Assembly: GCF_004766055.1 (NCBI RefSeq)
Contig: NZ_SPQR01000003.1
Span: 248,001-312,000, forward strand
DNA from: Desulfosporosinus sp. Sb-LF
GTDB taxonomy: Bacteria; Bacillota; Desulfitobacteriia; Desulfitobacteriales; Desulfitobacteriaceae
DNA length: 64,000 nt
Direction: 5' to 3'
The notes beneath the pieces were generated by a model. The model saw nothing but the letters and a program-made list of their open reading frames with translations. It searched no databases and was not told where the DNA came from. Made by a program: the position numbers and the translations under genes. Shown here in pieces: positions 6,665-43,263 of this stretch. Position 1 is the stretch's first letter; each line of letters opens with the position of its first letter.

Positions 6665-6713
6665 ACAAATATCGATTAGCAATTGGCTTAACACATTTAA
6701 AACTTTATAGAAC

Positions 6714-6811
6714 TCTTATTCAGAGAGGTGGAGGGACTGGCCCGATGAAACCCGGCAACCGGCATTAAGCACGGTGCTAAATCCTGCAGAGAAAAATCTG
6801 AGAGATAAGAG
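6714..6811 (+). ncRNA. SAM-I (S-box) riboswitch
   Basis: The sequence carries the S-box landmarks in order: CTTATTCAGAGAGGTGGAGG, GACTGGCCC, GATGAAACCCGGCAACC, a variable hairpin, and the closing GAGAGATAAGAG that pairs with the 5' CTTATT to form P1. SAM binding stabilises P1 and lets the adjoining terminator form, shutting off metNIQ when methionine/SAM is plentiful. Confidence 0.96.
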
Positions 6812-28492: not shown

Positions 28493-29920
28493 TCATTTTA
28501 GCTTACCGCAAAAATGCTGTGGTTCAAAGTTGTTTTTTCCTCGATTCAAACTCGAAACCGGAATAGGATATGCTCCATTAAAACAAGCTAAGCAAACATC
28601 ATTAGTGCCTAAGGCCCGTAGCAAGCCTTCTTCAGAGATATAGTGCAATGAATCGGCTCCCACGAACGCCCGTATTCCCTCGACATCAAATTGATTAGCA
28701 ATGAGTTTTTCCCGTTCAGCCGTATCAATCCCATAGAAACATGGATATGCAACTGGAGGAGAACTGATTAAGAAATGGACTTCTTTAGCCCCAGCATTTT
28801 TGACCATCTCCACCAGCTTGGAACTTGTGGTTCCACGGACAATCGAATCATCAATCATAACGACGCGTTTATCTTTCAAAACGCTCGTATTGGCATTAAG
28901 TTTCAGTCGAACCCCCACTTCTCTCATTGCTTGAGTTGGTTGGATAAAGGTTCGGCCAACATAACGGTTTTTAATAAGTCCTTCGCCAAAAGGAATCCCA
29001 AGTGCCGTAGCATAACCAAGGGCTGAAGCAGTCCCAGAGTCCGGGACTGCAATCACCAGATCAGCATCAATCGGGCATTCACTGGCCAGTTCAATTCCCA
29101 TCTGACGCCTACTCTCGGAGACGTTTAACTGATCGATTGTGCTATCCGGTCGAGCAAAGTAAATGTATTCGAAAGCACAAAATGCATGCTCAATTTTCGC
29201 AAGCCCTGGGCGCGTGTGTAATCCCTCTTCGTCGATTACGACAATTTCGCCAGGTTCGACATCTCTCACAAACTCCGCACCTATGGTATCCAGAGCGCAA
29301 CTTTCTGAAGCTAGGCAATACCGACCACCGATTAATCCAATACATAACGGACGGAACCCATGGGGATCTCGGATTCCAAACAACTTATCCTCAGCCAAGA
29401 TAACCAAGGCATACGCACCCCTTAGATCCATCATAGTCTTAACCAGCGCATCTTCCAGGGAATCTCGGCGATACCGAGCGACTAGATTAATGATCACTTC
29501 GCTATCAATGGTCGTCTGAAAAACTGCCCCATTTTTGCCCAGTTCTTCCCTTATTTCCAAGGCGTTCGTCAAATTCCCATTATGTGCTAAGGCCATCATG
29601 CCTTTTTGATAGTGAACAACCAAGGGTTGGGCATTCGCGAGGAGACTTGACCCCGTGGTTGAGTAACGAACATGCCCAATTGCCATTTTTCCCTTCAAGC
29701 CTTTTACATCTTGGTCAGAAAACACCTCTGACACCAAACCCATTCCTTTATGCAAGGAAATACTATGTCCGTCCGAAACCGCGATTCCAGCACTTTCCTG
29801 CCCTCTATGTTGTAGAGCATAAAGTCCGTAGTAAGTTAAACGGGCTACCTCCTGATTAGGAGCATAAATCCCAAAGACACCACATTCTTCTTTTGGTTTG
29901 TCCTCTCCAAATCCAACCAT
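28493..29920 (-). CDS. purF: Amidophosphoribosyltransferase
   Basis: From the ATG at 29,920 (AAAGGGGACC upstream) the product is 475 residues. It makes phosphoribosylamine from PRPP and glutamine. The propeptide ends before the catalytic Cys in EECGVFGIYAP, the Ntn-glutaminase domain follows ([21 protein letters not shown]), and the PRPP loop is VVMIDDSIVRGTTSSKLV. The C-terminal CFNGAYPIPVSSL end matters for recognising the purF fossil in the bza operon. The family often has a C-terminal iron-sulphur cluster, with ligands that may include C236-type residues and CLAC near the end. Confidence 0.96.
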   Translation of the reverse strand: MVGFGEDKPKEECGVFGIYAPNQEVARLTYYGLYALQHRGQESAGIAVSDGHSISLHKGMGLVSEVFSDQDVKGLKGKMAIGHVRYSTTGSSLLANAQPLVVHYQKGMMALAHNGNLTNALEIREELGKNGAVFQTTIDSEVIINLVARYRRDSLEDALVKTMMDLRGAYALVILAEDKLFGIRDPHGFRPLCIGLIGGRYCLASESCALDTIGAEFVRDVEPGEIVVIDEEGLHTRPGLAKIEHAFCAFEYIYFARPDSTIDQLNVSESRRQMGIELASECPIDADLVIAVPDSGTASALGYATALGIPFGEGLIKNRYVGRTFIQPTQAMREVGVRLKLNANTSVLKDKRVVMIDDSIVRGTTSSKLVEMVKNAGAKEVHFLISSPPVAYPCFYGIDTAEREKLIANQFDVEGIRAFVGADSLHYISEEGLLRALGTNDVCLACFNGAYPIPVSSLNRGKNNFEPQHFCGKLK

Positions 29921-29980
29921 TTTTGGTCCCCTTTCGCCCAAGCATCTTGACAATCTTTAATTGTGATTAAAACCGTAGCT

Positions 29981-32170: not shown

Positions 32171-32671
32171 TTAATTCCCATTACTGAAGTGTTTCTGTAA
32201 TGCTTCATCCTTTTTCTCAATATCCATTAGCATTTGTGCTCGATAGGCTTTTATCTTAATACTAAGGGATTCATCTTGGATGGCAAGGATCTGTACCGCG
32301 AGCAACGCCGCATTGCGTGCTGCACCAATGCCTACCGTCGCAACCGGAATTCCCGGGGGCATTTGTACGATGGAGTAAAGAGCATCGATTCCTTCCAAAG
32401 CTCCGCTGCTCAGTGGAACCCCGATCACAGGTAATGTCGTGGCACCCGCTACAACCCCAGGTAAATGAGCTGCTAACCCTGCAGCTGCAATGATAAGTTT
32501 CCCACCTTGTGCTTCAAAACTTTTCACCCAATCCACAGTTCTTTCCAATGTTCTGTGTGCGGAAGAAATCTTAATTTCAAAATCGAGTTCAAACTGACGG
32601 AGAACCTTAACGGCCTCCTCCATGATTTTGTAATCTGAATCACTTCCCATAATAACTCCAATCTGACTCAT
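32171..32671 (-). CDS. purE: 5-(carboxyamino)imidazole ribonucleotide mutase
   Basis: The 166-residue first gene of the purine operon encodes PurE, which makes CAIR. Landmarks are GVIMGSDSDYKIM, SSAHRTLERT with the catalytic-position His at residue 39, AGLAAHLPGVVAG, and PVIGVPLSSGALEGIDAL. The SAHRT form is that of class I (N5-CAIR mutase) enzymes, which work with PurK; no purK is in the window. It is about 80% identical to the paralogue at 39,550-40,050, in which this His is Gln. It lies directly downstream of the tandem guanine/PRPP riboswitch. Confidence 0.96.
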   Translation of the reverse strand: MSQIGVIMGSDSDYKIMEEAVKVLRQFELDFEIKISSAHRTLERTVDWVKSFEAQGGKLIIAAAGLAAHLPGVVAGATTLPVIGVPLSSGALEGIDALYSIVQMPPGIPVATVGIGAARNAALLAVQILAIQDESLSIKIKAYRAQMLMDIEKKDEALQKHFSNGN

Positions 32672-32699: not shown

Positions 32700-32842
32700 A
32701 CAAACAGAAACCCAGGAGGGCAAATTCCTCCCTTTAATTCAGAGTGAAACCTACCCGCCTGGGCTTTTATCCCTTCGGTGTAATTTGATTTTTCAATCAA
32801 ACCTGTACCACTCGGACAAATCATATGCCCTAGGTACACTTT
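32700..32842 (-). ncRNA. PRPP riboswitch (ykkC subtype 2b), second aptamer of a tandem
   Basis: On the minus strand, after the guanine aptamer, come the ykkC landmarks in order: CCTAGGG (32834-32828), GTCCGAG (32817-32811), a variable hairpin TTTGATT/AATCAAA, and CGAAGGGATAAAAGCCC (32777-32761) followed by AGGCGGG. These match the ykkC scaffold. Placement directly before purE points to the PRPP-sensing subtype rather than the guanidine or ppGpp subtypes. The 3' GCCCAGG segment of the aptamer is also one arm of the terminator, so ligand binding should permit read-through. Confidence 0.85.
32711..32764 (-). terminator. Expression-platform terminator of the guanine/PRPP tandem
   Basis: CCCAGGCGGG pairs with CCCTCCTGGG (one mismatch), and TTTCTGTTTG follows on the minus strand. 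The upstream arm overlaps the conserved 3' end of the PRPP aptamer. Confidence 0.75.
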
Positions 32843-32912
32843 CGCTCATAGTCAGGCCATTTACGGCAGCCTGGTAGAAACTTGCGGACCATATTTCCGC
32901 GGTTATATGAAC
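32843..32912 (-). ncRNA. Guanine riboswitch aptamer, first aptamer of a tandem
   Basis: On the minus strand the purine aptamer is clear: TATAACCGCGGAAATATGG, AAGTTTCTACC, GGCTGCCGTAAATGGCC and GACTATG closing P1. The discriminating position before TATG is C (32851), as in guanine/hypoxanthine aptamers; adenine aptamers have U. It lies 25 bp after the promoter of purE-B-C-F-M-N-H-D and immediately before the PRPP aptamer. Confidence 0.96.
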
Positions 32913-32936
32913 TCCCTATGAAATTCCAATAAGCTT

Positions 32937-33033: not shown

Positions 33034-33873
33034 TCAGAAATACGTATTTGCAAAATATCCATTAGTCTGTAGTAAATAAAGAAAGCAGGTTACTGAAAGC
33101 AAATCTGCACATCCCCCGGGGCTGATGTTTCGGGCAATGAATTCTCTATCCATCGCCTCTACAATATCCACTCCGTTTAAAATTCCACCCTGCTCAAGAA
33201 CTTTTTTGGCATACTCTTGCGCAAAAGAAAGTCCTTTTAGCCCAGTTCTTGACAATATGTTAGTATCTCGAGTTTGGGTGATAAGATGAAGCAGAGTTTG
33301 TACACAACAGTCATTAATCGATAGACCTTCCTCCATCAGAGTCTGAAAAATTGGAAGAGAACGCTTCATAACCGTAGGAAAACCTTTCTGAGCTTCTCCG
33401 CGCACTCCTGTAATTCCATATTGGGCAAAAAGTAGTTGCCCAGACGTCTGTTTATTCAACTTGCTCTCTTGCTTTGAAACTAAGTCCTGTTCTACCAATC
33501 CTTCGCAAAGTTCAGAGCAGATCTTTGAGATGTGGAATGGTGTTGTTCCGCCATGCTCCATTCCATAACCGGCAGCTGCAGTGACCAATCCCATCGAAAA
33601 AATTGCACCTTTGTGAGTATTCACCCCATGGGTTGCCAAGAGCATCGCTTTCTCAGCTTCAACTCCGTATTTCCGCAGCCTCAAAAATAACCCATCTAGC
33701 GTTTTACTTTGTCCTCCTGCCTGAGCACATCGGAACAGGTAAGGATGAATCGCTGTGGCACTGTTTATAAAAGTAAATAAATCCATATCAGTGTGAGCAC
33801 CACAATTAAAACGATCGACTAGGCCGGGCTTGGGTGAAGCAACGACTTCAATTAGTAGCGCTTTATGAGCCAA
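33034..33873 (-). CDS. citG: Triphosphoribosyl-dephospho-CoA synthase (CitG)
   Basis: The 279-residue CitG makes 2'-(5''-triphosphoribosyl)-3'-dephospho-CoA from ATP and dephospho-CoA, the prosthetic-group precursor of citrate lyase acyl carrier protein. Landmarks are EVVASPKPGLVDRFN (~residues 9-23), HTDMDLFTFINSA and GVNTHKGAIFSMG (~84-96). It lies 65 bp after citX. No citDEF or citC is in this window, so the target lyase must be encoded elsewhere. It is separated from the bza operon by a terminator. Confidence 0.92.
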   Translation of the reverse strand: MAHKALLIEVVASPKPGLVDRFNCGAHTDMDLFTFINSATAIHPYLFRCAQAGGQSKTLDGLFLRLRKYGVEAEKAMLLATHGVNTHKGAIFSMGLVTAAAGYGMEHGGTTPFHISKICSELCEGLVEQDLVSKQESKLNKQTSGQLLFAQYGITGVRGEAQKGFPTVMKRSLPIFQTLMEEGLSINDCCVQTLLHLITQTRDTNILSRTGLKGLSFAQEYAKKVLEQGGILNGVDIVEAMDREFIARNISPGGCADLLSVTCFLYLLQTNGYFANTYF

Positions 33874-33938
33874 ATTTGCAATATATTCATACCTAGAGTT
33901 ATTGATGCGGATACCTCTTTTCCATGTAATGCAATATC

Positions 33939-34451
33939 TTATAGAACTGTCCTAATCTGCGCATTAAAATACTCATTTGCTTTATCCTCGATTTGACTCA
34001 CCAAAGCTTTTATAGAATGGGCTTGCGAACGTCCACAGATTCTTGCATCCTCATTACACAGCAAGCACCGGCGGCTTGGTAGTTGCAGCTGTTTTCGGGA
34101 AACAATGTAGCCATCAGCATCCAAAACATCCATATCAAACAGCCTTCCTAATGGATGGTGTTCTTCAAGAGCAACAGTATATTTTTTTAGCATAAAAGCA
34201 TCCATGCGCACAGCAATAATTGCCTCACTGCCTGTTGGCAAGGCTCTTTTTTCGTAATCGATAACCGTTATAGCCTCTAAAAGAGCAGCAAGACCCTCCT
34301 CATGTACTCTATTATACAATGTGGTCTGTTTTACCTGTCCTGGAATATTTAAAGTGAAGGATACCAAAGGAGCGTGGTACTTCTCCAGCCATTCCTGTTG
34401 GCAAAGTGCACGTTTTTCACGGCTTAGTAAAATCTGTTCCTTTGTTACCAT
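33939..34451 (-). CDS. citX: Apo-citrate lyase phosphoribosyl-dephospho-CoA transferase (CitX)
   Basis: The 170-residue CitX transfers the CitG product to a serine of the citrate lyase acyl carrier protein. Family landmarks are LVSFTLNIPG (~residues 29-38), EEHHPLGRLFDMDVLD (~95-110) and SRRCLLCNEDARICGRSQAH near the C-terminus. It has its own upstream region with a palindrome at 34,536, and forms a two-gene unit with citG. Confidence 0.92.
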   Translation of the reverse strand: MVTKEQILLSREKRALCQQEWLEKYHAPLVSFTLNIPGQVKQTTLYNRVHEEGLAALLEAITVIDYEKRALPTGSEAIIAVRMDAFMLKKYTVALEEHHPLGRLFDMDVLDADGYIVSRKQLQLPSRRCLLCNEDARICGRSQAHSIKALVSQIEDKANEYFNAQIRTVL

Positions 34452-34869: not shown

Positions 34870-36366
34870 TTATGACAAAATCTCACTTATCTCTTTTTCT
34901 CCTGTCTTAACTAGTGTCTCTACCTGTTCATCCGTAAACTTTCCCCCGGTCTCCAATGTCTTTAAAGTATTCTCAAATAGGTTGACCAATGAGCCATTTA
35001 TCTTTGCATATCGTTCCTGGGCATTCTCAGGTTCCATAACCTTCTCACCCCAAATCCCGGCCATGCAGTCGAAGAGGAAGTTAGTAATTCTCCTCATGAT
35101 CATAGCTAAGATTGCTACTTTAGGATCAGTAAGACACAGAAGACTTTCATAAGTTGATGCTTGAACCTCCAGACGCCCGGCACGCTGTAGATCTCGGTGA
35201 GCCTTAGTTCCTTTTAAAACAATCAGGTGGTGGTAGAGCATGTTAGCAGTAATCGCAAGATTCTTCATTAAGTCATTTCGCTTCAGAAATTCAAAGTTGA
35301 CCCGGATATCCTCCAAGGATGAATCAGGCTCAAACATGATGAACCCAATATTTGGTTCGATCCCGTATTTGCGGAGAATTCTGATAGCCCTCTCGTTCTG
35401 GGCAACCGTCGTCATCTTATTTATCCGCTTCAGTGAACGGTCGCTACCGCTCTCCAGTCCTATGAGAATATGGCGCAGGCCTGCTTCTACCAATGCACTT
35501 ACTGTTTCATCATGGATATCGTTAACACGAGCCTCGATGCCAAACCGAATGTTTCTGGATTTAAGGAGGGTGGCCAAGCGCAAGACTCGTTGCTGGCCTT
35601 TTTCACCCGGACCGAAAAAGTTAGGATCGGTAAAATAGAAATTCTCTATTTTATGTTTCGCAATTAAATCATCGATTTCCGCAATAATATTTTCCGGAGC
35701 TCGCCCACGCCACTGAGATCCCTGTCCATAAAAAGGGTTGATGTAGCAGAAAGTACACCCCCCATAGCAGCCCCTACTCCCCTGCAAGTTTACTTCTGGC
35801 AGGCGGAAGAGGGCTTCCGTTCGTACGGGAAAAGGGAGAGCGTTAAGGTCACCCACCAGTTCTCGCCGCTGGGAAACAATCGTGCCCAAGACGTCCCTCT
35901 GAGCAAGACCGGGAAATTTCTCAAGACTATCCTGTCCAGAGATTGCTTCTACCACCTTGGCAAAGGTCAGTTCCGGTTCGCCTAGGATCACAGAATCAAT
36001 ATCCTGACACTGCTTTAAGATGTCTTCGAAGTCAGTTGTCGGATAATATCCATAAGCCGTGATATAAGAGGATAGTTGCTCAACTTTAACCTTGTGGAGA
36101 AAATCATACAAAACCTTGTCTATCTGCCAATGGTAAACCATATGAACCCCTATCAGGTCCGGTTGCATAGCCTTTACCCTGCGCTCAATTTCCTGGTAGT
36201 CGAGCCCATCCAAGAATCCTTCAATGATTTCGACCTCATGCTCTTCACTTATGAGCATACCTGCAATATAGCCGGAATGAAGACAAGAGGAAAGGGGAGT
36301 ATTGGCGATGTCATTACATCGTTCCGGGCAGACGTTTCGTGGGTGCTCTAATAATAGTATCTTCAT
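34870..36366 (-). CDS. bzaE: B12-binding-domain radical SAM protein, BzaE-like
   Basis: From the ATG at 36,366 (perfect GGAAGGAGG upstream, overlapping the bzaD stop as ATGA) the product is 498 residues. An N-terminal cobalamin-binding Rossmann-like domain (~1-150) is followed by a radical SAM core with CYGGCTFC (Cys 200, 204, 207). GLESGSDRSLKRINKMT is typical of this subclass. In Eubacterium limosum BzaD and BzaE are the last two methylation-type enzymes that convert 5-methoxybenzimidazole to 5,6-dimethylbenzimidazole. The E assignment here rests on gene order, so D and E could be swapped in function. It is the last gene of the operon. Confidence 0.8.
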   Translation of the reverse strand: MKILLLEHPRNVCPERCNDIANTPLSSCLHSGYIAGMLISEEHEVEIIEGFLDGLDYQEIERRVKAMQPDLIGVHMVYHWQIDKVLYDFLHKVKVEQLSSYITAYGYYPTTDFEDILKQCQDIDSVILGEPELTFAKVVEAISGQDSLEKFPGLAQRDVLGTIVSQRRELVGDLNALPFPVRTEALFRLPEVNLQGSRGCYGGCTFCYINPFYGQGSQWRGRAPENIIAEIDDLIAKHKIENFYFTDPNFFGPGEKGQQRVLRLATLLKSRNIRFGIEARVNDIHDETVSALVEAGLRHILIGLESGSDRSLKRINKMTTVAQNERAIRILRKYGIEPNIGFIMFEPDSSLEDIRVNFEFLKRNDLMKNLAITANMLYHHLIVLKGTKAHRDLQRAGRLEVQASTYESLLCLTDPKVAILAMIMRRITNFLFDCMAGIWGEKVMEPENAQERYAKINGSLVNLFENTLKTLETGGKFTDEQVETLVKTGEKEISEILS

Positions 36367-37697
36367 TTTACCTCCTTCCTCACTTCCTGCCACATCAATA
36401 CATTTCTGCACTGCTGAAGTGTTTCCAACTTGTATCTGAAGGTATTAAACGGTTCCGGGTTGTAGTAGGTGGGATAGAGCAGATCCGTCTCTGCGTCGAT
36501 GACCCCTTGCGCCCTGGCCATCCCTTCGATCGCTGTGCCTGGTAGAATGCGAATATTATTCAAAATGATAGTTCCAAGATTCTTTTTCTTGCTGTGCAAT
36601 TCATAAAGCTGTTCGACAAACTGAATACCTTTTTCGCAGGTCTTTTCCGTTTCCCCAGGCACATTGACCATAAAATGATAGACACTAACCACGTCCGTTT
36701 GTGCCACAAGACTTGCTGCTTTTAAAATCTGTGTTTCACTAAGATTTTTGCCTAAGATATCCAGTGATTCCTGGCACAGACCGTCGGGGGAGAATGAAAA
36801 ACATTCACACCCGGCCCGTTCAAACAAAGCGACATTCTTTTTATTAAGCTGGTCTTCCCGCATGAAACCGTCCCATCGAATCTTAAGCTTTCTGCGCAGT
36901 ATCTCTTCACAGATTCCCTCAAGGTGACCACGAGGAACGTTGAGTACAGGATCGGTAAAATGAAAACTCTCAATACCATAGTCTTTGTGCAAGATTTCCA
37001 TCTCATCTACAACGGCCGCGGTCGGGCGGCAGCGCAATCGCTTCCCTTGAAGTTGAGGATAGACACAATAAGCACATTTGAGCGCACAGCCCCGTTTGGC
37101 TTCAATTCCGATCGTGGGAACGTAGTTGTTGAGCCATTTATAAAGCGCAGGGTTCAGTAATAGCCTATTAGCAGTGACATAATCCGCCATGTCAAAATTA
37201 GTTGCAGGGGGTGAAATTCGAACCTTCAAGCCCTTTCGTCGGCAGAGTCCGGGCATTGGGGGCGGATTGTCTATAGAGCGGAGAAGAGCCGGGAAGGTTA
37301 CTTCTGCTTCTCCTACAATCCCATAATCAAGTTCCGGCAAATCTAGCATCAGCCGTTCTGGAAAAAGGGAAAAGCCGGTGCCACCCACAATCAACCAAGC
37401 TTGGGGCAGAACAGCGGCGATCATTCGAACCGTGACAATAAATGGAGAAATAAGCGAGCTGGTTTTATTACCCAGAGGATCAATATTACGTAAGGATAAA
37501 CCAATGGCCTCAGGTTGGAATGACAAAAGTTTATTCTTCAGCGCTCCGTAAGGGTCTCTTTCCAGATTCATGTCCAAAATACTTACCTCATGACCATAGC
37601 CATGAAGGTGGCTGGCCAGGAGGACAATCCCGATAGGATAGACTCTTTCCTGAGAAATGTCTTCTACGGAAGGGGTTTGGATCATTAGAACACGCAC
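36363..37697 (-). CDS. bzaD: B12-binding-domain radical SAM protein, BzaD-like
   Basis: The 444-residue protein has a N-terminal B12-binding-like domain (~1-145; IGIVLLASHLHGYGHEV, LIVGGTGFSL) and a radical SAM core with CALKCAYC (Cys 204, 208, 211), then HFMVNVPGETEKTCEKG. BzaD homologues methylate the benzimidazole ring using a radical mechanism. It lies 6 bp after bzaC and overlaps bzaE by 4 bp. Its own product, a cobamide ligand, would feed the cofactor it is predicted to bind. Confidence 0.82.
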   Translation of the reverse strand: MRVLMIQTPSVEDISQERVYPIGIVLLASHLHGYGHEVSILDMNLERDPYGALKNKLLSFQPEAIGLSLRNIDPLGNKTSSLISPFIVTVRMIAAVLPQAWLIVGGTGFSLFPERLMLDLPELDYGIVGEAEVTFPALLRSIDNPPPMPGLCRRKGLKVRISPPATNFDMADYVTANRLLLNPALYKWLNNYVPTIGIEAKRGCALKCAYCVYPQLQGKRLRCRPTAAVVDEMEILHKDYGIESFHFTDPVLNVPRGHLEGICEEILRRKLKIRWDGFMREDQLNKKNVALFERAGCECFSFSPDGLCQESLDILGKNLSETQILKAASLVAQTDVVSVYHFMVNVPGETEKTCEKGIQFVEQLYELHSKKKNLGTIILNNIRILPGTAIEGMARAQGVIDAETDLLYPTYYNPEPFNTFRYKLETLQQCRNVLMWQEVRKEVK

Positions 37698-37703
37698 GAT
37701 AAT

Positions 37704-39269
37704 TCACTCCAATAGCAACAGGGCAAAATATCTGACAAATTCGCCCTTGTCGCGCAAAATTCGAAGGTTTAGTCCCGCCCGGCGGACAGTTTCATAGACA
37801 TCGATACCTGCTCCCTCCATTGAAGGCCTGGCATCCCGTGTATTGCGACATGTCCCGTCAGTAGTGTTAGCAACGCAGGTAGCACAAAGAACGCATGGAC
37901 CTGCCCAATAAGCGAACGCTTTATGAAAGCCCGCTAAAAAGGCTTCTCTTTCGGCATTCAAAACCTGGGTCTGGAACATTTTGCCCGGGGGCTCCCCCTC
38001 CAGAAGCAGCGCGTGTGAAAAATCTTGCAGAGCGTCCCTGGTTTTTTGGGGAGAAGGACTATTTGGTGGGCAATGGCCTTGTCCGTACCGATCACATCCA
38101 TACTGACAGCGGAGATCCGTCCAGTCAGCGACATGGATAGTTTCCGTGGCAATTGGAAGAACTTGTCCAAATCCCATGGCCTTGATCTTAGCAATCAGGC
38201 GTGTTCCGGCATCGAGGCGAAGACTTGCCAGTTTCTTTTCGTCCTTCACTGCGAAGATTAGAGCAGTGTCGGTAGCTAAAGGGATGAGCTCGGTCGTGTA
38301 CAGTTTTGACATAGCTAATTGTTCTCGAACCCATGTTCCAGAAAAAATCCTGCCATTGTAAGTATTGATAAACATATTTAGATCAAGCAGAGCAGCCTTG
38401 GCAGAGCAGTGCTCTGGAAAGAAATCATGGATTACCAGGATTCCTCCTGGCTTGAGACAATTTGCAGCTCGGTCCAAGATTAGAGAAATCTCTTCTTCTG
38501 AATAGGCATGGATAATATTTGAGAGAATGACAAGGTCAAACCCTTCCTTAGCTATGGACCAAGGTTCCAAAATATTGCTTGGTATGTAGTAAACCCGTTT
38601 TCCAAACCCCTTCTTGTCCATCAACTCCTGTGTATAGCTGAGGACTTCTTGAATGTCCACTAAAGTTGCCGATAGTGAAGGAAAACTCCCCAGAAAACCG
38701 CCGGCAATCGCCCCAGAGCCTGTCCCTATATCAAGCATTTCTCCCTTCAGCTCAAGCCCCTCGAAGAAGGGCAGAATCTCTTCCACCTTAGTTTTGGCTA
38801 TATTATCCATAGCGTTGATATACTTTCGGATCCGCTGGGCAAACTGCTCTGGGCCCTCTTCTTCGACTGGAAAATTCACTCTGCCGCCTGCCTTAAGACA
38901 CTCGGTAAGGTCCTGCCACCCTAGCCTAAGACCTTTGCGCCAGAGGATCGAATCTCCTTGGTAATCACTCTTGCCTGCCACTAGATAGTCGCTGGCAAGT
39001 TTTGTATTATAATAACGTTTACCGCCATCACAAACCACTAGGCCTATAGCACAAAGAGCCTGAAGAAAACGCCCCAAACCAGAAGGAGGCATATCCAGTG
39101 CTCCGGCCATTTCAGCAGTCGTCATGCCTTCAGGTTCAAGCTGAGTAAAAACGTTCAGTTCTACAGCCGTAAACAGCACCTCAGAAAACCAGTATCCTGT
39201 TGACAAGTCTTCAAGGTACTGAGGGCCTGCATACTGTGGATTATATTGAAAAATGGGTGTTAATCCCAT
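37704..39269 (-). CDS. bzaC: BzaC-like O-methyltransferase fused to a DUF2284 metal-binding domain
   Basis: From the ATG at 39,269 (GGGGAGGG nine bases upstream) the product is 521 residues. Residues ~20-95 are the winged-helix dimerisation domain of small-molecule O-methyltransferases (LSTGYWFSEVLFTAVELNVF; TTAEMAGALDM). Residues ~170-330 are the SAM-dependent methyltransferase core with LDIGTGSGAI at ~179-188. Residues ~345-521 are a DUF2284-like domain with two cysteine clusters, CQYGCDRYGQGHCPPNSPSP and GPCVLCATCVANTTDGTC. BzaC methylates 5-hydroxybenzimidazole to 5-methoxybenzimidazole. The fused cysteine-rich domain is unusual and may bind an iron-sulphur cluster or corrinoid-related metal. 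Confidence 0.85.
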   Translation of the reverse strand: MGLTPIFQYNPQYAGPQYLEDLSTGYWFSEVLFTAVELNVFTQLEPEGMTTAEMAGALDMPPSGLGRFLQALCAIGLVVCDGGKRYYNTKLASDYLVAGKSDYQGDSILWRKGLRLGWQDLTECLKAGGRVNFPVEEEGPEQFAQRIRKYINAMDNIAKTKVEEILPFFEGLELKGEMLDIGTGSGAIAGGFLGSFPSLSATLVDIQEVLSYTQELMDKKGFGKRVYYIPSNILEPWSIAKEGFDLVILSNIIHAYSEEEISLILDRAANCLKPGGILVIHDFFPEHCSAKAALLDLNMFINTYNGRIFSGTWVREQLAMSKLYTTELIPLATDTALIFAVKDEKKLASLRLDAGTRLIAKIKAMGFGQVLPIATETIHVADWTDLRCQYGCDRYGQGHCPPNSPSPQKTRDALQDFSHALLLEGEPPGKMFQTQVLNAEREAFLAGFHKAFAYWAGPCVLCATCVANTTDGTCRNTRDARPSMEGAGIDVYETVRRAGLNLRILRDKGEFVRYFALLLLE

Positions 39270-39299
39270 CTCCGAATTCCCTCCCCGCAGGATTTCCAA

Positions 39300-39349: not shown

Positions 39350-39511
39350 CTATACCTGAATAGGATACGTTCCGATTCCAGCACTTTCCTGTCCTCGGTG
39401 CTGCAGAGCGTAAAGCCCGTAGTAAGTTAAACGGGCAACCTCCTGAGTAGGGGCATAAATCCCAAAGACACTGCATTCCTCTTTCGGTTTGTCCTCTCCA
39501 AATTCGAACAC
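39350..39511 (-). pseudogene. purF: purF fossil: N-terminus joined to C-terminal residues
   Basis: Reading from a GTG at 39,511 gives 53 codons. Codons 4-46 match the PurF N-terminus ([18 protein letters not shown], then [18 protein letters not shown] and QESAGI). The reading then jumps to GTYPIQV and a stop, matching the GAYPIPV near the PurF C-terminus; the DNA at the joint (GGAACGTATCCTATTCAGGT) matches the purF 3' end at 17 of 20 bases. So ~400 central codons were deleted from a full purF copy. A good ribosome site (AGGGGGG) remains, so a 53-residue peptide with the former catalytic Cys may still be made. Confidence 0.9.
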
Positions 39512-39549
39512 GTTCGCCCCCCTCTCCTCTCAGTTCAGTGCTTAATCCC

Positions 39550-40050
39550 TCAATTACCTTCACTTATGCGCTTCTGTAACGCTTCATCCTTCGCCTCGAT
39601 ATCCTTCAGCATCTGAACTCGATAGTCTTTAACCTTAATACTTAAAGCACTATCTTGACACGTCAGAATCTGTACCGCAAGTAACGCTGCATTCCGCGCA
39701 GCACCTATGCCTACGGTCGCAACTGGAATTCCCGGGGGCATTTGTACGATGGAGTAAAGAGCGTCGATTCCTTCCATAGCACCACTGTTCATCGGAACAC
39801 CTATGACAGGCAAAATCGTTGCACCCGCTACAACCCCTGGCAAATGAGCAGCTAAACCTGCTGCCGCGATAATAAGTTTTCCACCTTGAGCTTCAAAACC
39901 TTTCACCCAATCGACAGTTCGTTTCAATGCCCTTTGGGCGGAAGAAATAATAACTTCAAAAGGAACTTCAAATTGACGAAGAACTTCTAGGGCTTCTTCC
40001 ATGACTTTATAATCTGAATCACTTCCCATAATGACCCCAATCTGGTTCAC
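39550..40050 (-). CDS. PurE paralogue lacking the catalytic histidine, in the bza operon
   Basis: The 166-residue protein is about 80% identical to the operon PurE and keeps GVIMGSDSDYKVM, AGLAAHLPGVVAG and the PVIGVPMNSGAMEGIDAL loop, so substrate binding and octamer formation look intact. The active-site motif SSAHRT is replaced by SSAQRA: residue 39, equivalent to the catalytic His45 of E. coli PurE, is Gln. Carboxy-group transfer should be lost or much reduced. AIR is the substrate of the BzaA/BzaB homologues encoded just upstream, so an AIR-binding or delivery role is plausible (inference). In E. limosum this operon position holds cobT. Confidence 0.88.
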   Translation of the reverse strand: MNQIGVIMGSDSDYKVMEEALEVLRQFEVPFEVIISSAQRALKRTVDWVKGFEAQGGKLIIAAAGLAAHLPGVVAGATILPVIGVPMNSGAMEGIDALYSIVQMPPGIPVATVGIGAARNAALLAVQILTCQDSALSIKVKDYRVQMLKDIEAKDEALQKRISEGN

Positions 40051-40198: not shown

Positions 40199-41497
40199 TT
40201 AGCAGATTCCACCCGTTTTTCCAAGGTGTTCCCCAACTAATTTCATAGCACAGAAACCACCACACATAGAACAGGCTTCAGCACCCTCTTCGTTACGCTC
40301 TCCACGGATCCGCCGAGCTGTTGGAGGATCAATGGACAGTTCAATTTGCTTTTCCCAATCTAATGCTTTACGAGCATGGGCCATGGCTAAGTCCCATTCC
40401 CGTGCACCCTTAACACCATTAACTATATCTGCTGCATGAGTGGCAATGCGCGTAGCAATTACCCCTGCGTGTACATCTTCAGCGGTTGGTAAGCGTAGAT
40501 GTTCGGCAGGTGTAACATAGCAAATGAAGTTTGCACCTGATATAGCAGCAGTTGTTGCTCCGATGGCTGCTGTAATATGGTCATAGCCCGGCGCAATATC
40601 CGTGACTAAATTGCCAAGAATATAGTACGGCACGTGGTGGCAAAGTTGTTTTTGGAGCAAGATCGTTGCTGGGATTTGGTCCAATGGAACGTGACCTGGT
40701 CCCTCTACCATAACTTGTACTCCAGCTTCCAGGGCTCGTTGCACCAATTCTCCAGCCACAATCAATCCTTGGACTTGGGCGCGGTCTAGTGAATCTTCGA
40801 TACAACCAGGTCGGATAGCATCTCCAACACTAAGCGTTACATCGTATTTCTTACAAATTTCAAGAACTCGATCAAATTGAGCATAGAGAGGATTCTCTTG
40901 CTCGTGGTGGAACATCCAGCCTGTTATAAAGGCCCCTCCACGACTCACGATATCAGTAATTCGTCCTTGATTTTTTAATCTTTCAATAATAGACATGTTT
41001 AAAGCAGCATGAATTGCCATAAAATCGATGCCACGCTTTGCCTGACGTTCAATCATTTCGAACATATCCTCAGCCGTCATACCTACAACACTTCCGTGTT
41101 TGTCAATACTTTCCATTCCACCTTGGTAGCTTGGAACAGAGCCGACAGGTAGAGTGAAGTTTTCGATCACCTGATGGTGGAAAGCATCAACATCTCCGCC
41201 AATACTTAATTCCATAATCGTATCCGCGCCAGCCGCAACGGCAACCTTTATTTTATGGAGCTCATCTGAAAAGTCCACACAGTCCGGTGACGTCCCAATA
41301 TTGGCATTTACTTTGGTACGAAGTCCTTCCCCTACCGCAATCGCGTTACAGTTCTTGTGTTGTTTGTTCTTTATGATCACGACCCGGCCTTGCGCTACCT
41401 TCTCGCATAACGCTTCCGCTGTAAGCCCTTCTACTTTTGCTAATCTTTCTACCTCAGGCGTAATAATTCCTTGTCTTGCTTTGATAAGTTGTGTCAT
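40199..41497 (-). CDS. bzaB: ThiC-family radical SAM enzyme, BzaB-like
   Basis: The 432-residue ThiC paralogue acts, with BzaA, on AIR to give 5-hydroxybenzimidazole (known for BzaA/BzaB of E. limosum and the single BzaF). Landmarks are VNANIGTSPDC, MELSIGGDVDAFHH, SVGDAIRPGCIEDSLDRAQV, VMVEGPGHVPLDQIP and TDIAPGYDHITAAIGA. The C-terminal cluster motif is CSMCGGFC, Cx2Cx3C, one residue shorter than the Cx2Cx4C of E. coli ThiC. Two tandem thiC-like genes under a cobalamin riboswitch, without other thi genes, argue for Bza function rather than thiamin synthesis. It lies 117 bp after bzaA. Confidence 0.87.
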   Translation of the reverse strand: MTQLIKARQGIITPEVERLAKVEGLTAEALCEKVAQGRVVIIKNKQHKNCNAIAVGEGLRTKVNANIGTSPDCVDFSDELHKIKVAVAAGADTIMELSIGGDVDAFHHQVIENFTLPVGSVPSYQGGMESIDKHGSVVGMTAEDMFEMIERQAKRGIDFMAIHAALNMSIIERLKNQGRITDIVSRGGAFITGWMFHHEQENPLYAQFDRVLEICKKYDVTLSVGDAIRPGCIEDSLDRAQVQGLIVAGELVQRALEAGVQVMVEGPGHVPLDQIPATILLQKQLCHHVPYYILGNLVTDIAPGYDHITAAIGATTAAISGANFICYVTPAEHLRLPTAEDVHAGVIATRIATHAADIVNGVKGAREWDLAMAHARKALDWEKQIELSIDPPTARRIRGERNEEGAEACSMCGGFCAMKLVGEHLGKTGGIC

Positions 41498-42962: not shown

Positions 42963-43008
42963 AAAAAAATAAAAAAAGTCTCTAATCACACAGTGACTAG
43001 AGACTTTT
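42963..43008 (-). terminator. Cobalamin riboswitch terminator
   Basis: AAAAGTCTCTAGTCAC / GTGATTAGAGACTTTT pair with one mismatch around a 3-base loop, followed by a long T-rich tail on the minus strand. It lies between the aptamer and bzaA and is the expression platform. Confidence 0.92.
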
Positions 43009-43063
43009 CCATAATCTCATCCACACTACTCTTGGTTCTTCGACAAGGTAGGCTTGGGCAAAC

Positions 43064-43214
43064 TACAGGCAGGTCTCCTGGCTTACGGATCAATGTCTGA
43101 AGCACCTTCCAGGAACTACCCCGTGGCTATACTTCTTACTCCCCGTTTACAGTGGCGGGACCGCGCCGGACTTACACCGACTTCCCTATTCTCCTCTTAA
43201 GTGAGGCACCTGTA
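43064..43214 (-). ncRNA. Cobalamin (B12) riboswitch
   Basis: On the minus strand the canonical landmarks occur in order: GGTGCC, GGGAAGTCGGTG, GTCCGGCGCGGTCCCGCCAC, TGTAAACGGGGAG, and the B12 box AGCCAGGAGACCTGCC. It precedes bzaA, so the operon is repressed when cobamide is sufficient, which supports lower-ligand synthesis rather than thiamin synthesis for the ThiC paralogues. Confidence 0.97.
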
Positions 43215-43234
43215 ATTTTAAGTTTTCTAAGCGT

Positions 43235-43263
43235 AGTATAACCAATAAACTTGTGTTTGACAA
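43235..43263 (-). promoter_or_regulatory. Promoter of the bza operon
   Basis: On the minus strand TTGTCA (43263-43258) and TATACT (43240-43235) are 17 bp apart, directly upstream of the cobalamin aptamer. Confidence 0.88.

Follow-up and report, generated by a model that had tools for sequence, protein, structure and literature searches.

AIR stands at a fork between purines, thiamine and the lower ligands of anaerobically made B12, and how it is shared among these products is poorly known. In the anaerobic branch, the first benzimidazole is formed from AIR either by BzaA together with BzaB or by BzaF (PMC6461909). On the purine side, PurE is described as an octamer (PMC11451730) whose catalytic histidine is reported to be universal in both class I and class II enzymes (PMC9376930). 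Replacement of this histidine by glutamine inactivates E. coli PurE, whilst the equivalent A. aceti mutant retains traces of activity; in the human enzyme, the amide of Ala302 holds the new carboxylate and His303 takes the proton (PMC9376930). Where PurK is absent, class I-like PurEs are thought to use AIR and CO2 or to rely on N5-CAIR formed non-enzymatically, and in E. coli overexpression of PurE can substitute for PurK, which indicates that the amount of PurE can limit this step (PMC3261824).

The window analysed here, a stretch of 64,000 nucleotides from Desulfosporosinus sp. Sb-LF, carries a second PurE gene within a bza operon, hereafter purE-Q, whose product has glutamine in place of the catalytic histidine. 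The accessible parts of the literature on PurE and His45, on bza genes and on Desulfosporosinus and cobamides contained no description of a bza operon with a PurE paralogue, which is no proof of absence.

The bza operon and its PurE paralogue

Along the minus strand, the order is cobalamin riboswitch, hairpin, bzaA, bzaB, purE-Q, bzaC, bzaD, a bzaE-like gene, citX, citG, purine riboswitch and the purine genes purE-B-C-F-M-N-H-D. The features, in window coordinates, are:

43235..43263, minus strand: promoter-like site before the riboswitch (TTGTCA-17-TATACT), a consensus match only
43051..43228, minus strand: cobalamin riboswitch upstream of bzaA (RF00174, 116.4 bits)
42972..43010, minus strand: strong terminator-like hairpin of 18 pairs with a T tract, in the interval from the cobalamin riboswitch to bzaA
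41615..42934, minus strand: bzaA, ThiC-like, named by operon position (PF01964; TIGR04386 517.8 bits, below cut-off)
40199..41497, minus strand: bzaB (TIGR04386 732.4 bits, cut-off 700)
39550..40050, minus strand: purE-Q, PurE paralogue with Gln for the catalytic His at residue 39 (open reading frame, AIRC and purE models)
39934..39936, minus strand: codon 39 of purE-Q, CAA (Gln), at the position of E. coli His45
39368..39529, minus strand: decayed piece of a second purF, covering PurF' residues 2-55 with 93% identity to the copy in genome G008 (tblastn, three-frame translation, TIGR01134 match at G000:C3:287371-287475)
37704..39299, minus strand: bzaC, O-methyltransferase domain and C-terminal DUF2284, named by operon position
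36363..37697, minus strand: bzaD (TIGR04385 785.5 bits, cut-off 450)
34870..36411, minus strand: bzaE-like B12-binding radical SAM protein, named by operon position
32829..32930, minus strand: purine riboswitch upstream of purE (RF00167, 83 bits)
32171..32671, minus strand: purine-operon purE with SSAHRT, the copy of parental type (open reading frame, family models)
28493..29956, minus strand: purine-operon purF, an open frame with its Cys1 codon beginning at 29884

BzaB and BzaD exceed the cut-offs of their curated models, a ThiC-like bzaA adjoins them and a cobalamin riboswitch is present, as expected of a lower-ligand bza operon. No curated model gave the names bzaA, bzaC and bzaE, which are based on operon position and domains, and purM, purN, purH and purD were named by reading of the translations. 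The BzaB and BzaD models, with the domains of the neighbouring bzaC, bear out the placing of the paralogue between bzaB and bzaC in the preliminary description, whose remark that this slot holds cobT elsewhere also fits: the stretch from bzaB to bzaC often carries cobT in other genera (e.g. L230, L234, L237, L242 and L251), and in the window genome cobT is located outside the slot. The closest named match of the window BzaB is that of D. lacus (93%).

The cobalamin riboswitch precedes bzaA in all seven loci scanned, those of the window and of six relatives, and a purine riboswitch precedes purE in each of the six scanned loci that contain this gene. Promoter-like sites are no commoner in the region than in shuffled sequence (19 against 19.1). 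A terminator scan gave 13 sites for this region, compared with a mean of 10.6 in shuffled sequence, and its weak sites are accordingly taken as noise; it saw no strong terminator on the minus strand between bzaA and the bzaE-like gene; on this basis, purE-Q is presumed to be co-transcribed with bzaA and bzaB. The citX and citG genes (citrate lyase prosthetic group, 33034-34451), on the stretch that separates the bza operon from the purine riboswitch, were not matched at any other locus scanned in the genus. A SAM riboswitch is present at 6713-6811 of the window. The DUF2284 domain of BzaC is apparently missing in G005 and G026, where the match ends near residue 362.

The purE-Q gene begins with GTG and encodes 166 amino acids, 138 of which (83%) are identical in the purine-operon PurE (80% identity at the DNA level), in agreement with the value of about 80% first given. 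The motif SSAHRT of the purine-operon protein reads SSAQRA in PurE-Q, with CAA at codon 39, and the replacement of the catalytic histidine noted at the outset is thereby confirmed. PurE-Q scores 186.3 bits against the curated purE model (NCBIfam TIGR01162, cut-off 149.6) and 193.5 bits against Pfam AIRC (PF00731, cut-off 30). As both models match, model-based annotation would call the protein a normal mutase, an annotation trap in which a curated model labels it an ordinary N5-CAIR mutase. An identity as LarB, of the pincer cofactor, was rejected (NF033503, 48.2 bits, below the cut-off of 175). The AlphaFold2 monomer is predicted to adopt a plain PurE fold (pLDDT 84.4, pTM 0.80), and the 50 PDB matches listed for this model are all PurE, with TM-scores over the query of 0.84-0.91.

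Fixation, origin and selection of purE-Q

The genus set comprised 29 genomes, 14 of which have BzaD over the cut-off; the layout of one (G011) differs, leaving 13 Desulfosporosinus genomes with the layout bzaB-slot-bzaC-bzaD. In 11 of these 13, each representing one species, a full-length purE-Q lies directly after bzaB. Residue 39 is Gln in all 11 bza-operon copies, none of which has the catalytic His, and His in all 81 other PurEs read. This association is far beyond chance, and the agreement of 11 genomes rules out a sequencing error or a single-strain oddity as the source of Gln39. The 81 His-type PurEs consist of 28 purine-operon copies of the genus (the purE of G020 was dropped, its residue-39 stretch reading N), 33 more, of which 30 are from other genera of the order (42 of 44 genomes with a match) and three are extra PurEs of the genus, and 20 of the closest-ranked from a phylum sample (376 of 398 genomes with a PurE match). 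The nucleotide-binding motifs, described at first as kept, are indeed invariant in the 11 bza copies (GSDSD, S36-S37, R40 and AHLPG).

Though the layout is present, there is no trace of purE-Q in G015, whose bzaA lies beyond the stretch read, and remnants only in G012; these two genomes show that the gene can be lost. At locus L132 of G006, where bzaA-bzaB are kept and bzaC and bzaD are fragments, no purE-Q was found either. At this locus, bzaA and bzaB are probably the sole survivors. No bzaE was found after bzaD in G026, nor on the short contig of G005. A scan of the genome contigs for BzaB kept 80 loci, of which L004 (D. lacus) alone has a neighbouring BzaA or BzaD match; the remaining loci look like ThiC and were excluded.

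The 11 purE-Q copies form one clade (support 100/97) nested among the Desulfosporosinus purine PurEs, the fork that encloses it within the genus is supported at 99/99, and the clade still holds (98/92) when columns 30, 34 and 39 are removed. As judged from these trees, one within-genus duplication explains all 11 copies. Sites 30, 34 and 39 alone separate every bza copy from every purine copy. At the 39 sites that are invariant in 61 His-type PurEs, H39Q is the only change common to all 11 bza copies; A38 is replaced by Pro in four of them, and two further changes occur in a single copy each. Gln39 is encoded by CAA in six copies and by CAG in five, and the Ile that replaces Lys34 in all 11 uses three codons, so that the amino acids stay fixed although their codons change.

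Mean dN/dS of purE-Q is 0.090 (NG86) or 0.133 (YN00) over 55 pairs (first 152 codons, mean dS 0.87), compared with 0.056 (NG86) or 0.084 (YN00) for the purine purE of the same 11 genomes; by these estimates, selection on purE-Q is somewhat relaxed relative to the purine copies, yet strongly purifying. Variable positions over 160 codons number 134 at third, 51 at first and 28 at second positions. The preliminary description had allowed that the paralogue might be confined to this strain under relaxed selection; instead, Gln is fixed in 11 genomes, and the conserved substitution, conserved operon position and purifying selection that it had looked for are all found (dN/dS 0.09 by NG86, 0.13 by YN00). 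A drifting duplicate without function would account for a dN/dS above that of the purine copies by both methods, and for the absence of purE-Q from G015 and its decay in G012. It is nevertheless very improbable, as the gene is full-length in 11 species-level genomes and varies mostly at third codon positions, and the purF' that shares its slot does decay; a relaxed pseudogene is likewise disfavoured by dN/dS and the codon-position pattern.

Twenty-four further loci around bzaD (L230-L252 and L210) gave no PurE match, including the 18 in which bzaA/bzaB-type genes are present as well. This absence argues that BzaA and BzaB have no general need of a PurE-like carrier, and it weighs against the proposal, which we consider rather unlikely, that PurE-Q forms octamers of its own that bind AIR, protect it and pass it to BzaA/BzaB, or onto which BzaA/B dock at the point where AIR would normally reach PurE. 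Such a carrier would be in keeping with the intact nucleotide-site residues, with the position of purE-Q directly 3' of bzaB in 11 genomes and with the substitutions fixed at positions 34 and 30, which could form a new surface.

PurF in bza loci

The purF remnant of the window lies between purE-Q and bzaC. The slot between bzaB and bzaC holds an intact PurF' in G008, G009, G015 and G023 and remnants in G012 and G019; among the 11 purE-Q genomes, PurF' is intact in three (G008, G009 and G023) and a remnant in two (the window genome, G000, and G019), and the gap of the other six has none. The four intact PurF' form a clade inside the purine PurFs of the genus in a quick tree with some long branches. 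They all carry P, H, H and Q at T76, Y242, G310 and R350, which are invariant in 19 purine PurFs of the genus, and are altered at other residues invariant in the same 19; R73C is found in addition in G009. Residues 73 and 76 presumably fall in the glutamine pocket, and T76P and R73C there suggest that PurF' may be inactive. They also make it doubtful that PurF' is a plain feedback-free supplier of AIR, an idea first suggested by the position of other changes: in our own alignment reading (an offset of 11), G310 and R350 are three residues from R307 and S347, mutations of which free B. subtilis PurF from feedback (PMC4223553), and residue 389 matches the S400W site.

The dN/dS of PurF' is 0.11-0.18, compared with 0.03-0.05 for the purine purF copies. 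Given that PurF' has lost T76, Y242, G310 and R350 among others and yet retains this degree of constraint, and that PurE-Q and PurF' both derive from purine-operon genes of the genus, the two could be retired enzymes that serve as regulatory subunits of PurE and PurF. We hold this joint role to be quite improbable, as an intact PurF' accompanies PurE-Q in only three of 11 genomes, which argues that PurE-Q is independent of it. Separately, dS among the PurF' copies is far below that of the purine purF of the same genomes (L117, L118, L120 and L125), e.g. 0.27 against 1.54, and transfer of the bza operon between species is a possible explanation of these low values.

PurF also occurs with bza genes in other families. 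Among the 21 phylum-sample genomes with BzaD over the cut-off, the window's own included, it lies within or beside bza genes in G183, G105, G118, G157 and G223, each of which has a further PurF over the cut-off, although in G223 this is an almost identical copy, on a second contig that likewise bears bzaD. A separate clade of bza PurFs spans three families, with loci in other families (L238, L246, L247, L249 and L250) and in other Desulfosporosinus (L253, L254 and L255) where its members lie in or beside bza genes. The PurFs of G001, G011, G013 and G018 join this clade (SH-aLRT 95, quick tree); those of G001, G011 and G013 adjoin bzaA/bzaB-type genes, and the G018 contig ends just downstream of purF. 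The PurFs of these nine genomes keep T76, Y242, G310 and R350. It seems from these trees and neighbourhoods that purF joined bza genes at least twice, as would be expected if AIR has to be supplied or directed to the Bza enzymes; its occurrence in other lineages suggests that the feeding of AIR into B12 is a recurring need. The literature search found no paper with both bzaA and purF. At L256 in G002, a divergent PurF adjoins a lone ThiC-like gene; this PurF branches apart, was not counted as a bza PurF and perhaps supplies AIR for thiamine.

A proposed role for PurE-Q in the sharing of AIR

Human Ala302 and His303 correspond to positions 38 and 39 of PurE-Q. The PDB contains chains with the motif SAQR (2nsh and 2nsj, which we take to be E. 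coli PurE) and chains with SANR (2fw6 and others of that sequence, including 5clj). 5CLJ is described as containing AIR and CO2 (PMC9376930), which, together with the existence of these His-mutant chains, indicates that such proteins fold and can bind. Judged by its residues, PurE-Q is likely to bind AIR or CAIR with little or no carboxyl transfer, and A38P could weaken ligand binding in four copies. That PurE-Q has instead a changed catalysis, either a slow one or another reaction of AIR or CAIR such as a decarboxylation of CAIR that returns AIR, is improbable. The traces of activity in the A. aceti His-to-Gln mutant (PMC9376930) and the strong conservation of PurE-Q would favour it, but the same substitution leaves E. 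coli PurE inactive (PMC9376930) and A38P, in four of 11 copies, removes the amide NH that holds the carboxylate in the human enzyme.

The reading that we tentatively prefer is that PurE-Q acts as a PurE subunit incapable of carboxylation and thereby leaves AIR to BzaA/BzaB, probably by way of mixed octamers with PurE. PurE-Q would keep the nucleotide site for AIR and CAIR without the chemistry of carboxyl transfer. When cobalamin is short, the cobalamin riboswitch, if it acts in the direction assumed here, would permit synthesis of BzaA, BzaB and PurE-Q; PurE-Q may then join the PurE octamer, the subunits being 83% identical in the window, and cut the share of working active sites. AIR would be expected to rise and to be turned by BzaA/B into 5-hydroxybenzimidazole. 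Under purine shortage, more PurE would be made through the purine riboswitch, and PurE-Q would be diluted. A brake through mixed octamers is the simplest way for PurE-Q to help, because the subunits are nearly alike and PurE is octameric.

PurK was not found over the cut-off in 27 of the 29 genus genomes, the window genome among them (some of the genomes are incomplete, and of 14 control genomes 11 have a PurK match at this cut-off). The two genus genomes with PurK keep its gene beside a different PurE. The absence of PurK, the purF remnant, the intact purF in four relatives, the two riboswitches and the changes at K34 and A38 are points that the preliminary description missed. Lower-ligand demand is small beside purine demand, and a brake on purines looks costly; for this reason, the alternative in which PurE-Q delivers AIR to BzaA/B competes seriously with the brake. 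Against the AIR-sparing reading itself stand the absence or decay of purE-Q in G015, G012 and G006 and a dN/dS above that of the purine copies; moreover, with conserved residues lost from PurF' itself, the purE-Q/purF' pair is not simply one of 'push and block'. A wider scheme, which we regard as doubtful, would make a natural pseudoenzyme of PurE-Q and, in some relatives, of PurF' too: each would be built into the oligomers of its active counterpart, PurE or PurF, and the relative output of the cobalamin riboswitch (for PurE-Q) and the purine riboswitch (for PurE) would fix the oligomer composition and so apportion AIR between purines and the B12 lower ligand. The accessible literature on dominant-negative PurE and on pseudoenzyme precedents yielded nothing on PurE.

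PurE-Q points to a dedicated sharing of AIR between purines and B12; it reproduces at the AIR fork, in nature and under selection, a classic inactive mutant, and offers a direct handle on that sharing. In common with E. coli PurE (1qcz), a class I N5-CAIR mutase, PurE-Q has the sequence family, the fold and the nucleotide-site residues of the enzyme; it differs in having Gln for His (11 of 11 copies) and Pro for the preceding Ala (four), and in its location, a bza operon headed by a cobalamin riboswitch. In laboratory His mutants of PurE (SAQR in 2nsh and 2nsj; A. aceti H59N in 2fw6 and 5clh), the substitution is at this very residue, and in 2nsh it is likewise to Gln; these were engineered, whereas PurE-Q is natural, fixed and under selection. 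The fused PurE-PurE' of Methanobacteria resembles the window in having two PurE domains of unequal similarity and no PurK, and its second half is needed to complement loss of purE or purK (PMC3261824); in the window, however, the two PurE genes are separate and one of them lies inside a cofactor operon. Finally, the operon of the window is like the anaerobic benzimidazole operon bzaABCDE in gene order and in its cobalamin riboswitch, but the slot in which cobT often sits elsewhere holds purE-Q and, in relatives, also purF'.
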